Shown piece by piece: positions 9,546 to 14,392 of a stretch of DNA of 64,000 nucleotides. The first letter of the stretch is position 1. Each line of letters opens with the position of its first letter. The notes under the pieces were generated by a model, which saw nothing but the letters and a program-made list of their open reading frames with translations, was not told where the DNA came from and did not search any database. The stretch comes from Armatimonadota bacterium (GTDB taxonomy: Bacteria; Armatimonadota; Fimbriimonadia; Fimbriimonadales; Fimbriimonadaceae), in the NCBI GenBank assembly GCA_018268315.1, contig JAFDWU010000001.1, forward strand, positions 411,280 to 475,279, written 5' to 3'. Made by a program: the position numbers and the translations under genes.

Positions 9546-10418
9546 TTACCGTTCGATAGGAACGCCTACCAGGTTGCCCCACTCGGTCCAGCTACCGTCA
9601 TAATTTCGCACGCTCGGATAGCCCAGCAGATAGGTGAGGGCGAACCAGGTATGGCTAGACCGCTCGCCGATTCGACAATACACAATCACGTCGTCCTTCG
9701 GCGTCAGCCCCGCGCCTGCTTCGTAAATCTCCCTAAGTTCCTCGGCGGTCTTGAATGTGCCGTCCTCGGTGTTTACCGCGCGAGCCCACGGCACGTTCTT
9801 CGCACCGGTGATATGCCCGCCGCGCAAGGCGCCTTCGTTCGGATAATCCGGCATGTGCAGCCGCTGCCCCGTGTACTCCTCAGGTGAGCGAACGTCGATC
9901 AGCTTGCCTTGCTTCTCGACATGGGCCATGACGCCTTTGCGGAAGACTCGAACGGTTTTGTCGTCCCGCTCCGAGGCTACGTAGTTTGAGGGAGCGCGCT
10001 TAACCACATCCCGAGTGAGAGGGCGCTTCTCCAAGGTCCACTTGATTCGCCCACCATCCATGATCCGAACCTTCTTATGGCCGAATAGGTGAAACACCCA
10101 AGCCGCGTAGGTCGCCCACCAGTTGTTGCGATCGCCGTAGAAGATAATCGTCGTATCCGCGGTTGCGCCGAGGCGGCGCATCAGCGCTTGAAATTCATCT
10201 TTGCCTAAGTAATCCCGCCGAATGCGGTCATTCAGGTCCCGAGTCCAGTCAACTTCCTGCGCTCCTGGGATGTGGCCGCTGGCGTAAAGGAGAGGATCCT
10301 CGTTCGACTCCACGAATATGTAGTTGGGGTCTTCAAGATGCTCCGCAACCCAGTCGGTCGAAACAAGAAACTCCGGGTGGGCGTAGCCCCGCTCTTCAAT
10401 TCGGCTTAGCACGTGCAT
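9546..10418 (-). CDS. Thiosulfate/3-mercaptopyruvate sulfurtransferase
   Basis: A 290-residue protein with two tandem rhodanese domains. The N-terminal domain (about 15-135) lacks the active Cys (loop YGDRNNW). The C-terminal domain has the active-site loop YCRIGERS with Cys 248. It moves sulfane sulfur from thiosulfate or mercaptopyruvate to an acceptor. A basic loop (CRIGER) fits thiosulfate rhodaneses better than mercaptopyruvate enzymes, but this is not decisive. The ATG has no Shine-Dalgarno; AATAAT lies 6 bases before it, so it may be leaderless. It follows modB on the same strand with a 7-base gap. Confidence 0.9.
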
Positions 10419-10425
10419 TTGGTTA

Positions 10426-11208
10426 TTATTGCGCTTCTCGCCGTTTTGGGCGGGCTACAAATGCGATAAGAGCCCGCACGCACACCAGAATGATTAGCGA
10501 CAGAGTTGCGAGGCCGATGGCTGAGTCGATGTCTGTCTGAAACTCAGAGTAGATTGCCAGCGAAATCGTCTGCGTCTTTCCCGGTAGATTTCCCGCAAAC
10601 AGCAATGTGGCGCCGAACTCTCCCATCGCGCGCGACCAGCATAGGGCCAACCCGGACACGATGCTGCCCCTCACCGCCGGGGCGATCACCTTGCGTAGCG
10701 CCGTAAGCGCGGAAGCGCCCTCAAGCGCGGCCGTCATTTCAAGATCGGGCGAAAGGTCGCGAATTGCCCCGATCAGGGGGCGCACAAATAGAGGGCACGC
10801 AACCACCAACTGGGCAATCATCACGCTCACCGTTGTGAAAGGCAGCACGATTCCCGCCGAATCCAACGCCGAGCCAACGATGCCGCGTGGGCCAAGCGCA
10901 ATAAGCAAGCCAAGCCCCAGCACCGCTGGGGGTAGGAAGATTGGCGCTTCCACGAAGAACGTCCCGAGTCCTCTCACCACCGCCGACTTCGAGCGGGCCA
11001 ACACAAAGGCCAATGGTAAACCGAGCAGCAAGGCAACCAGGGCGACTGCCGTGCTGGTTGCAACGCTGATCTCAAGCGCCAGCAGCACCTCATCATTCCT
11101 TGCCGCGCCCAGCTTGTTCCAACCCGCAAGCGGCACCGCCACCACCGGAATCGCGAGCGCGGTGAGAAGAATGCCGCCAAGCAACCAGAGAGAAAACTTA
11201 GACTTCAC
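10426..11208 (-). CDS. modB: Molybdate ABC transporter permease
   Basis: A 260-residue inner-membrane permease with about five hydrophobic segments. The conserved [18 protein letters not shown] near the C-terminus includes the EAA-type loop that contacts the ATPase and the ModB/CysT signature. The start is GTG, overlapping the modA stop as GTGA. It would pass molybdate or tungstate received from ModA. The cognate ATPase ModC is not encoded next to it. Confidence 0.92.
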
Positions 11209-11972
11209 CGATGCGCCACGTTGTAACCAAGCTTCAAGAGTTCACGCTCTGTTTCAGCGGAGCGAAGATCGTCAAGCAACAGCCGAGCTAAGCCGACCTT
11301 TCCCCGCCTAACCGCAGCCACGAAGTAATGCCCCGTCACCGCGAAGCGCTTCTCCAGCTCGATCCCAATGACGGAACCGTTCGCGGAAAGAATGTCAGTT
11401 GCGTAGACAAAGCCGGCGTCCACCGCTCCGAACTTGACCTTGGCAAGGACCGAGGCAACATCCGGCTCTTCCGTGGCGACATGGTGGAAAACCGATTCCC
11501 GCCACTTCGGGCCGTAGACCAGGGCCGCCTTATCAATCGCCTTCCATGCGTAATTCCCCGCCGGAACTGACCGCTGGCCGATGGCAATCCGAATCTTTGG
11601 GGCGGCAAGGTCCTTGATCGACGTGACCGTCTTCACCGCTTCCTTCCGCACCGCAAGCATCAATCGATTTCGACAAAGCTCATGTGCCCGCCCCGCAACG
11701 AGGCCCGCGGTAATCGCTTTCTCCATGTTCACGGAGTCGGCGGTAATCAGCAGGTCACCGGGCAGGCCCTGCTGAAGCTGGGCCACCAACATTGGGCTGC
11801 CGCCGTATACGAACTCCACCTTACAATCGGGGAACGCCGCGTGCAAGCGCTCAAACTTGAGTTGGGAAAGCAACGGGCGAAGTGAAACCGCCGCGAACAC
11901 CCGAACAACCTGGCCCGCGTGAAGGCCCGCTGCCAAAGAAAGCAGCAGGGCAATGGACCAGAGTTTCCGCAT
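11205..11972 (-). CDS. modA: Molybdate-binding periplasmic protein
   Basis: A 255-residue protein with an N-terminal signal peptide (LWSIALLLSLAAGLHA) and the ModA fold: VFAAVSLRPLL near the N-terminus, the oxyanion segment GGSPMLVAQLQQG, GDLLITAD, and VDAGFVYATD near the end. It captures molybdate in the periplasm for ModB. The ATG at 11972 lies 12 bases after the prcB stop, so it may be in the same transcript; TAATCT 9 bases upstream of the ATG could also act as its own -10 box. Confidence 0.9.
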   Translation of the reverse strand: MRKLWSIALLLSLAAGLHAGQVVRVFAAVSLRPLLSQLKFERLHAAFPDCKVEFVYGGSPMLVAQLQQGLPGDLLITADSVNMEKAITAGLVAGRAHELCRNRLMLAVRKEAVKTVTSIKDLAAPKIRIAIGQRSVPAGNYAWKAIDKAALVYGPKWRESVFHHVATEEPDVASVLAKVKFGAVDAGFVYATDILSANGSVIGIELEKRFAVTGHYFVAAVRRGKVGLARLLLDDLRSAETERELLKLGYNVAHR

Positions 11973-11984
11973 GGCTGCGCGAGA

Positions 11985-12740
11985 TTACCGCTTCGCTAGC
12001 ACAGTCTCAATTTTCTTTTGGAGCAACTCGTCGTCAATCGGGCGGTTGCCATCTCGGTCAAGAATGCGAGTAACGGGCGGGATCTTCGCAAAGCCTCCGG
12101 TTGCCGAGTCAAGCTCGGCAGCAATATCCAGCATCTCTAAGCCGTCCTCCAAGACGCTATCAAGCTTTCGGCTCTCCCAAGGACCCTTCTTACGCGCGAG
12201 GTACTCGAAGATGCCTCTAATGCGTTCGGAGCCGGATCCCGCGCAGGCATAAGAGCCGTTCTGGAAACGAGCGCCCGCGCCATCGAAGAAGTAAACGCCG
12301 AACTGGTCTTTCTTGGCATCGTATGCGGAAACAATAGGCAGGAACAGGCCAATTCCCTGCATCGCCATCGGGGCGTTATTGGCGAGAGCTCTGGAAATCT
12401 CCATCAGCTTGCCCTCCACCGACATTTCCGTCAGCGCCGTGCGCCGGTAGTACTTGAACGAGTGCTTCAGGAACCTGCAGACTTCAACGCTTCTTGCGAA
12501 CGCGCCGCTGATCGCCACGACGGTCGAATCATCCAGAGGCATGATCTTCTCGGCATGGTCATACATGATCAAGTTGCCCGCCGTCGCTCGCCTATCGGCA
12601 AGCGTGAGCACGCCGCCTGAATATCGCAAAGCGATTACAGTGGTGCCGTGAGTCTCAAGCGAGGGGTCGATGGAAGTCATCGGCGCCCGAGCGCCGAAAT
12701 CCACGATATCGAAGAAGGATTTGGAAGGCACTTCGATCAT
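11985..12740 (-). CDS. prcB: 20S proteasome beta subunit
   Basis: A 251-residue Ntn hydrolase. The propeptide of 32 residues ends in Gly 32 and the mature chain would begin at Thr 33 (HG/TTVIAL), the catalytic N-terminal nucleophile. Conserved Asp and Arg of LADRRAT and the Lys of DHAEKIM follow at expected spacing, and a C-terminal GSGSERIRG segment matches beta subunits. It would form the proteolytic rings of a bacterial 20S proteasome. The ATG overlaps the UBact stop as ATGA. No alpha subunit gene (prcA) follows; the next gene is modA. Confidence 0.93.
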   Translation of the reverse strand: MIEVPSKSFFDIVDFGARAPMTSIDPSLETHGTTVIALRYSGGVLTLADRRATAGNLIMYDHAEKIMPLDDSTVVAISGAFARSVEVCRFLKHSFKYYRRTALTEMSVEGKLMEISRALANNAPMAMQGIGLFLPIVSAYDAKKDQFGVYFFDGAGARFQNGSYACAGSGSERIRGIFEYLARKKGPWESRKLDSVLEDGLEMLDIAAELDSATGGFAKIPPVTRILDRDGNRPIDDELLQKKIETVLAKR

Positions 12741-12916
12741 TGGCCGCTTCGCTGCCTATATTTCTTTGCTTGCTCGGGGTCAACCCGCTTCATGCGCCGC
12801 ATCAATTCATTGTCGCCGCCCGGCTTGGGCACGGTTGGCCGCACCGGACCGGAGTCGTCCGATTTTCGGCTCGGCTCGGGGCTGTTGGGTTTTGTTAGTC
12901 GATCTCCGTCGCTCAA
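12737..12916 (-). CDS. UBact/Pup-like protein modifier
   Basis: A 59-residue protein, disordered and polar. The N-terminal half is rich in Ser, Pro, Asp and Lys. The C-terminal half reads LMRRMKRVDPEQAKKY and ends RQRSGQ, matching UBact, the Pup-like modifier described from Nitrospirae, Armatimonadetes and other diderms. The terminal Gln would need deamidation to Glu before ligation, as for Pup-Gln, and the neighbouring Dop-like enzyme could do this. The start is TTG directly after the dop TAA (no gap), with GGAGG 7 bases upstream; the stop overlaps prcB as ATGA. Position, start signal and C-terminus together make it secure. Confidence 0.93.
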   Translation of the reverse strand: MSDGDRLTKPNSPEPSRKSDDSGPVRPTVPKPGGDNELMRRMKRVDPEQAKKYRQRSGQ

Positions 12917-14392
12917 TTATTCGCCTCCTATCGCGTTTATAAATGCTTCTACGTTCGAGGAGGCCTCAAGTTGCTCCTCATAACACTGATCGGGCAGCAA
13001 CTCCACCTCCTTCAGTTCTCCGTCGACCTCGAAGGTCAGTGTTCTCCAGCATACGCCTTTTAGTTCGGCTGCAAACTTGCTGACAGCTAAGCCACGCGCA
13101 AACGAGCGCGCGCCCGCACCGCCGCGCTGTAAAAACCTTTCAAATGTTTGCAGTTCAGCTGGTCGCTCCAGTACTCCCATCTCCGCAAGTGCGAAACTGA
13201 GACCATCGACAGGGTCGATGTTGTGATACTCGAGGTCGTATGCCTGAAGCTCTGGCGATCGCCACGAAAGGTCGGCGTGATCCATGAACTGCTCCAGCAT
13301 TCGCCGCTTGGCCAGCCAGTCGATATGCCTTGCCGCCTCGGCCTGATCTGATCGCAGGCTGTCCATCAAGCTCCTTGCCGTCCTAATCGTCCACTGAAGG
13401 TCAGAGTCGTCGCCAAGAACGCTCTCTGCTGCTGCCAGGTAGGACTCGATGACCTGATAGGCGCTGGTCTTGGCGCCGCCTTCGAGCTCCATCGCAAACT
13501 CCAAGCTCTCATCCCTTGAAATGCGTTTAAGAGCGGTGACTGGATCAGCAAGCGACCACTGGGGCGTCTTCTGGGCCGCCTCAAGGGCCAGCGACAGCTT
13601 GATCAACCCGACCTTCAGCTTCGTCGCCGTCGTGGACATGTTCGCATCGCCCGCAATGACATGGAGCCGAATCCACTCGCGTGAATCTGCATGCGCCTCG
13701 TCGCGCGTGTTGAAAAGGGGCCGACGGTAAAGCGTATCAACCGAGGCAATCTCGGAAAAGAAATCGGCTCGTTGGCTTAGCTGATAGGTCGCTGAGTCCC
13801 CAGCCTCCGCCCCCACCTTGCCAGCGCCGCAAAGGATGGTCCTTGCCACCAGCATGGGCACGCAGGCATCCCGTAGCCTATCAAACCCAATTGCCCTCGG
13901 CGTCAGATAGCTTTCGTGGGTGCCGTAGGATGCGCCGTGAAAATCCGTGTTGTTCTTGTAAACCTTCGCAGCTAGGCCGGTTGCCCGCTGGAAGGCGCCA
14001 AGAGTTCGGAGAAGGCAGAGTTCGCCCGCGTGATCGAAGTTGGCAAGCTCATCCAGGCTCCAACTCTCTGGCGTGCTGAATTCGGGATGGCCGTGGTCGT
14101 TATAGAATCGCGCCCCGTTTTCAAGCACGCGGTCAGACCGGGTTTCCGCGTCGGTTCGCTCCCGCGCGGTTGGCTTCTCAAACTTAAGATCTTCAGGATC
14201 AACCGCGAGATGCTGCACGGTGAAACCGCGCAAGTCGGCGCGCGGGCTCTCGTAGCGATAATTCCAGCCCGCGAAAGCGGGAAGTGGGCAAGCTTTTAGG
14301 AACGCGACTGCATCATCAATTTGATGGGGAGCCTCGTGCCCGGAAACCATCAGACCGTATTCGGTCTCGATTCCCGCCAGTATAGAGTTCAT
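12917..14392 (-). CDS. dop: Dop-like Pup/UBact deamidase-depupylase
   Basis: A 491-residue protein of the Dop/PafA carboxylate-amine ligase family. It has GIETEYG at the N-terminus (Glu 9), YNDHGHPEF (Asp 99), KNNTDFHGASYGTHESYL, and NTRDEAHAD with RLHVIAGDANMS. Two features favour Dop over the ligase PafA: the insertion segment around WNYRYESPRADLRGF, and the DHxHPE form where PafA has DVGSHPE. Dop deamidates the modifier C-terminus and removes it from substrates. Start ATG 14392. It lies immediately after a lipoprotein gene and directly before UBact. Dop versus PafA is judged from remembered sequences and is fairly confident. Confidence 0.88.
   Translation of the reverse strand: MNSILAGIETEYGLMVSGHEAPHQIDDAVAFLKACPLPAFAGWNYRYESPRADLRGFTVQHLAVDPEDLKFEKPTARERTDAETRSDRVLENGARFYNDHGHPEFSTPESWSLDELANFDHAGELCLLRTLGAFQRATGLAAKVYKNNTDFHGASYGTHESYLTPRAIGFDRLRDACVPMLVARTILCGAGKVGAEAGDSATYQLSQRADFFSEIASVDTLYRRPLFNTRDEAHADSREWIRLHVIAGDANMSTTATKLKVGLIKLSLALEAAQKTPQWSLADPVTALKRISRDESLEFAMELEGGAKTSAYQVIESYLAAAESVLGDDSDLQWTIRTARSLMDSLRSDQAEAARHIDWLAKRRMLEQFMDHADLSWRSPELQAYDLEYHNIDPVDGLSFALAEMGVLERPAELQTFERFLQRGGAGARSFARGLAVSKFAAELKGVCWRTLTFEVDGELKEVELLPDQCYEEQLEASSNVEAFINAIGGE

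Follow-up and report, generated by a model that had tools for sequence, protein, structure and literature searches.

We asked whether a short frame lying between dop and prcB in an Armatimonadota genome is a genuine gene of the UBact family and which pathway its product could serve. The window, as we call the whole stretch of 64,000 nucleotides that was analysed, belongs to contig JAFDWU010000001.1, and the features discussed are collected in the table. UBact, a family reportedly described by Lehmann et al. in 2017 (doi 10.1016/j.bbrc.2017.01.037), stands for a known and experimentally little-studied kind of ubiquitin-like tagging outside Actinobacteria, to which the window gene adds a further member.

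Direct reading of the sequence places the start codon TTG at 12916-12914 and the stop codon TGA at 12739-12737, and translation gives the product MSDGDRLTKPNSPEPSRKSDDSGPVRPTVPKPGGDNELMRRMKRVDPEQAKKYRQRSGQ. The original prediction had described a 59-codon TTG frame fitting between dop, with no gap, and prcB, with an ATGA overlap; this fit is exact, and the strand, which had been left unstated, is the minus strand. The dop stop codon TAA (12919-12917) stands directly before the ubact TTG in the same frame, and the ubact TGA shares the ATGA overlap with the prcB ATG (12740). The GGAGG announced 7 bases upstream of the TTG was likewise read directly, as CCTCC on the plus strand, with a spacing of 7 nt. 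The TTG start is supported by the impossibility of an in-frame upstream start, since the preceding codon is the dop stop, and by a relative (L042) with an ATG at the homologous position and an N-terminus, MSDGERLTRP, nearly the same as that of the window UBact. Scans for promoters and terminators found no excess over shuffled sequences.

Within the stretch 12914-12928 of the minus strand, the ubact Shine-Dalgarno sequence also encodes the final residues of Dop, GGE. A role of this ...GGE end as a mimic of the Pup end was considered and rejected: by sequence comparison it is not kept among relatives, the other Dops of the order ending otherwise, and these residues are what the ubact Shine-Dalgarno sequence spells when translated as part of dop. 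We also noticed that stop-codon readthrough of the dop TAA into the in-frame ubact TTG would yield a Dop-UBact fusion.

Table. Positions of ubact, its neighbours, the partner genes elsewhere in the host genome (G000) and the UBact genes of viral records.
Feature	Location	Strand	Description	Basis
ubact	window 12737..12916	-	59-aa UBact modifier, TTG start, C-terminus YRQRSGQ	NF033388/PF20513 match; conservation in 30/31 genomes
Shine-Dalgarno-like sequence of ubact	window 12924..12928	-	GGAGG within dop 3' end	direct reading
dop	window 12917..14392	-	depupylase/deamidase-type, 491 aa	PF03136, TIGR03688/TIGR03686, PDB alignments, tree
prcB	window 11985..12740	-	20S proteasome beta subunit, 251 aa	PF00227 81.9 bits, TIGR03690 122 bits
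modA, modB, rhodanese-domain gene	window 9546-11972	-	close after prcB	
PafA-type paralogue	G000:C2:371511-372905		second Pup_ligase paralogue	
PrcA	G000:C1:404393-404848			TIGR03691 82.5 bits
ARC	G000:C2:630534-632009			TIGR03689 436.7 bits
phage UBact	L181:4947-5123		IMGVR_UViG_3300018079_000002 (IMG/VR)	NF033388 67.3 bits
phage UBact	L182:2798-3079		IMG/VR	NF033388 60.4 bits
viral-record UBact	L184:6001-6165, L185:1051-1215		IMG/VR	NF033388 46.7 bits

When searched against the UBact and Pup profiles, as had been proposed, the product passed the UBact models far above their cut-offs, with 74.7 bits for NCBIfam NF033388 (E = 4.8e-21; curated cut-off 35 bits; residues 6-59 aligned to positions 2-54 of the 54 of the model) and 64.5 bits for Pfam PF20513 (E = 7.4e-18; cut-off 27.8 bits). 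The Pup model gave no match in Pfam at E 0.01, UBact being the sole family reported, and on this ground a Pup acquired by horizontal transfer was rejected. A PDB search gave no match up to E 10. The predicted likeness of the C-terminus to the UBact family held as well, as the product ends in YRQRSGQ, with the family pattern YRQR[ST]G[QE] placed exactly at the stop. AlphaFold2 modelled an extended N-terminus and only two helices (37-43 and 47-57), with no strands or beta-grasp and a mean pLDDT of 69, a modest confidence at which the model agrees with the small, non-beta-grasp, mostly disordered architecture with C-terminal helices of the family. These two helices presumably resemble the two helices of PafA-bound Pup. 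Moreover, the genomic association of UBact with Pup-ligase-superfamily enzymes, the 20S proteasome and ARC was found in this genome.

The window UBact is thus an ordinary family member, already recognised by curated models. It shares with the family the full-model match, the RQRSG[QE] end, a length of ~60 aa, an occurrence outside Actinobacteria and a position next to genes for a Dop-type enzyme and for the proteasome, and nothing of substance differs, the particulars being the TTG start and the site between dop and prcB, while pafA, prcA and arc occupy other parts of the genome. Like actinobacterial Pup, it is small, predicted to be mostly disordered and provided with a C-terminal G[EQ], it adjoins a gene of the PafA/Dop family and it co-occurs with the proteasome and ARC/Mpa, a gene-neighbourhood and co-occurrence pattern known for Pup in Actinobacteria (PMC2588565). 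In contrast to Pup, it ends in SGQ and not in GGE or GGQ, carries the YRQR motif and lacks a match to the Pup model.

The frame is also present in close relatives, whose lack of it had been named as a reason to abandon the gene: UBact was found in 30 of the 31 genomes of the order, always as one copy, and Pup_ligase genes likewise in 30 of 31. The only genome without UBact (G021) is also without Pup_ligase and ARC, and its one remaining proteasome-family match is probably HslV. Fourteen columns are invariant among 18 UBact orthologues, including the C-terminal YRQRSG, and the YRQRSG[QE] end is strictly conserved in the order. The GTDB genomes hold 256 places that encode relatives, and the 80 best of these come mostly from Armatimonadota, with some from Verrucomicrobia. 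The relatives inspected preserve the order dop-ubact-prcB, and in most relatives the stop codon of ubact and the start codon that follows overlap (ATGA, GTGA or TAATG). Comparison of the last 24 ubact codons with 29 relatives gave 209, 94 and 392 differences at codon positions 1, 2 and 3, and counted by codon, 320 synonymous and 161 non-synonymous differences; this pattern and the synonymous excess indicate a coding frame under purifying selection. We are highly confident that this is a true UBact gene, from a Fimbriimonadales-like Armatimonadota bacterium, and that it is translated from a dop-ubact-prcB operon that is conserved and tightly coupled in translation.

Close after prcB and on the same strand, the window carries modA, modB and a rhodanese-domain gene, in whose place relatives have other genes. 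As the genes downstream of prcB vary, the molybdate-transport genes are probably outside the system.

The Dop-like nature of the neighbour, also part of the original prediction, was supported by several comparisons. The protein scores 417.6 bits against Pup_ligase PF03136, and more as Dop (TIGR03688, 340.8 bits) than as PafA (TIGR03686, 255.3 bits); because 340.8 bits is below the TIGR03688 equivalog cut-off of 492.3 bits, it is called Dop-type and not filed as an equivalog. In the PDB, the Dop structures 4b0r/5lrt matched with ~266 bits and the PafA structure 4b0t with 170 bits. Considering the residues that are diagnostic for Dop versus PafA (PMC7947786), we found both the Dop-loop WNYRYESPRADLRGF, aligned to 4b0r, and Dop-type surroundings of the catalytic Asp, NDHGHPEFSTPE; this residue is Asp99 by alignment, in NGARFYNDHGHPE, and the active-site motif DHxHPE...TP is present. 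With the Dop of Acidothermus and Mycobacterium (PDB 4b0r, 9cku) the window protein shares, over aligned residues 6-459, the Dop-loop, DHxHPE, STPE and QLSQRADFF, and it differs from them in falling below the TIGR03688 cut-off. Identity of the neighbour as PafA was rejected on the Dop-loop, the active-site motif and the paralogue tree.

A second Pup_ligase paralogue, of PafA type, lies on another contig of the host genome. It scores nearly equally as Dop (278) and as PafA (270.8), so that its ligase role rests on the active-site motifs, with the PafA-type DAVGSHLEYATAE, and on the missing Dop-loop. The paralogues form two clades, with Dop-type NDHxHPEYATPE or PafA-type active sites, and the order's 21 PafA-type rows part from every Dop-type row at 100/100; in the same tree, the reference for actinobacterial PafA has a long branch and falls next to the Dop references, which blurs deep orthology.

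The proteasome genes complete the picture. In PrcB, a propeptide ending in ...ETHG is followed by TTVIAL, which by motif makes Thr33 the mature N-terminal residue. PrcA is encoded ~19 kb away on the same contig as the window, and ARC on contig 2. Dop, PafA, PrcA, PrcB and ARC all fall short of their NCBIfam equivalog cut-offs, and these seem to have been set with actinobacteria in mind. The host genome therefore holds a complete but dispersed Pup-type gene set, with Dop, UBact and PrcB in the window and PrcA, the PafA-like ligase and ARC elsewhere.

By analogy with the Pup system, the neighbour would act on UBact as deamidase and depupylase. Dop would deamidate the C-terminal Gln of UBact to Glu, the PafA-type ligase would link this Glu, through its gamma-carboxylate, to lysines on target proteins, and the ARC ATPase would catch the disordered N-terminal part of UBact and thread it into the PrcA/PrcB proteasome; PrcAB would then degrade the tagged protein, while Dop would remove and recycle the tag. 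If conjugation to lysine follows Pup in this way, UBact should mark proteins for the bacterial proteasome. The complete partner set and the joint absence of UBact, Pup_ligase and ARC from one genome count for such a pathway. UBact tagging could be reconstituted from one genome, with pafA, prcA and arc added to the dop-ubact-prcB cluster, whose compactness suits cloning.

The terminal Gln had been taken to imply a deamidation step by Dop. Results showed that the residue is compatible with this step, but the implication did not stand: the last residue among the 30 orthologues of the order is Gln in 17 and Glu in 13, and Dop is retained also in genomes with a Glu-ending UBact. Dop is likewise kept with the Glu-ending Pup of C. 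glutamicum, where depupylation explains it (PMC3511204). Therefore, as Dop is kept with either end, Gln fits deamidation and does not by itself imply it. Among the best 80 of the 256 GTDB places, one row left out, 55 end in Gln and 24 in Glu. The two residues toggle repeatedly among close relatives (L038-L067, L101-L180), even in one genus (Gln in G023, Glu in G025), and this natural variation would make it possible to test the deamidase step cleanly.

The coupling of ARC to the 20S particle may differ from that of Mycobacterium, where Mpa docks by a C-terminal GQYL whose penultimate Tyr is the main binding determinant (PMC8755798), since ARC of the order is without GQYL: GQYL/HbYX is absent from 25 of 25 C-termini, which have hydrophobic ends, mostly VI, IV or II. 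The hydrophobic end usually stands few residues after an Arg or Lys (L033:1360-3027, L211-L234). The uniform absence of GQYL/HbYX, together with the weight of the penultimate Tyr in Mpa, would suit an ARC that docks poorly on the 20S core, with UBact conjugated mainly as a reversible regulatory mark and degradation only minor. We regard this as improbable, because ubact is translationally coupled to prcB in most relatives, ARC and PrcA are retained together with UBact, and the conserved alternative C-terminus of ARC may itself be another docking signal. A still weaker case can be made for decay of the pathway in the window species, leaving UBact with its unprocessed Gln as a non-functional remnant; the window Dop does sit on one of the longer branches in its clade (0.83 changes per column), but the Asp and the motifs of its active site are preserved, every partner gene is an open frame and UBact is under purifying selection, and we consider decay very unlikely. 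That a frame so short and TTG-started, with further open frames on the opposite strand, lies between dop and prcB by mere chance is practically incredible in view of its E value to a curated family, the synteny in relatives, the 29 further orthologues and the codon-position pattern. Tagging for the proteasome is the reading that we prefer.

UBact genes above the UBact cut-offs were also found in viral records. In a 70-kb contig (L181), a 58-aa UBact ending in YRQRSGQ lies between portal and MuF-type head genes, and the contig also carries terminase, tape measure, tail, DNA polymerase, primase, helicase and ribonucleotide reductase genes, a content that marks a genuine tailed phage. The UBact of L182 has an N-terminal extension; its gene is flanked by those for a portal protein and for a head-morphogenesis protein, after which comes a head maturation protease gene. 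Thus, at least two tailed phages encode UBact within head-gene modules. A third viral record (L184/L185) is less certain: a 54-aa UBact precedes a LamG-containing protein of 1120 aa, and clear viral hallmark genes were not found in the part of the record examined. A tblastn search of INPHARED with the window or phage UBact as query gave one partial match at E = 2, or none. A Verrucomicrobia-like host is suggested by the N-terminus MPEQ.QK and by an identity of 61-65% to copies from Verrucomicrobia.

By the cut-offs, the phage copies belong to the same family as the window UBact, from which they differ in their place in viral records, two of them within head modules, and in having no Pup_ligase gene in the UBact-bearing records, which may be fragments. 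A UBact with no ligase gene of its own in the record points to phages that exploit the host pathway or jam it, and the phage closest to L181 (L187) is without UBact at that position, as expected of cargo. We tentatively propose, while holding it rather doubtful, that phages of UBact-bearing bacteria took UBact more than once and may, with their own copy, jam or redirect the host UBact-proteasome pathway or tag virion or defence proteins, and that the ARC of the window genome may dock through a C-terminal signal other than that of Mpa. If true, the window pathway would be of a kind exploited by phages and UBact more than a bacterial housekeeping tag. A literature search, with most subscription papers outside its reach, returned no earlier report of phage UBact, so phage-carried UBact appears previously undescribed; if confirmed, these copies would be a case of viruses carrying a bacterial protein-degradation tag.

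Two records of the relatives deserve mention. A UBact contig labelled Methanoregulaceae archaeon SJ84 (L148) shares its UBact tail with a Fimbriimonadaceae MAG (L149) and is probably mis-binned. In addition, MAG CP_BM_RX_R8_32 has UBact on two contigs (L165 and L173, both JAFAZD010000...) with the same C-terminal 25 residues, either a duplicate gene or assembly redundancy.
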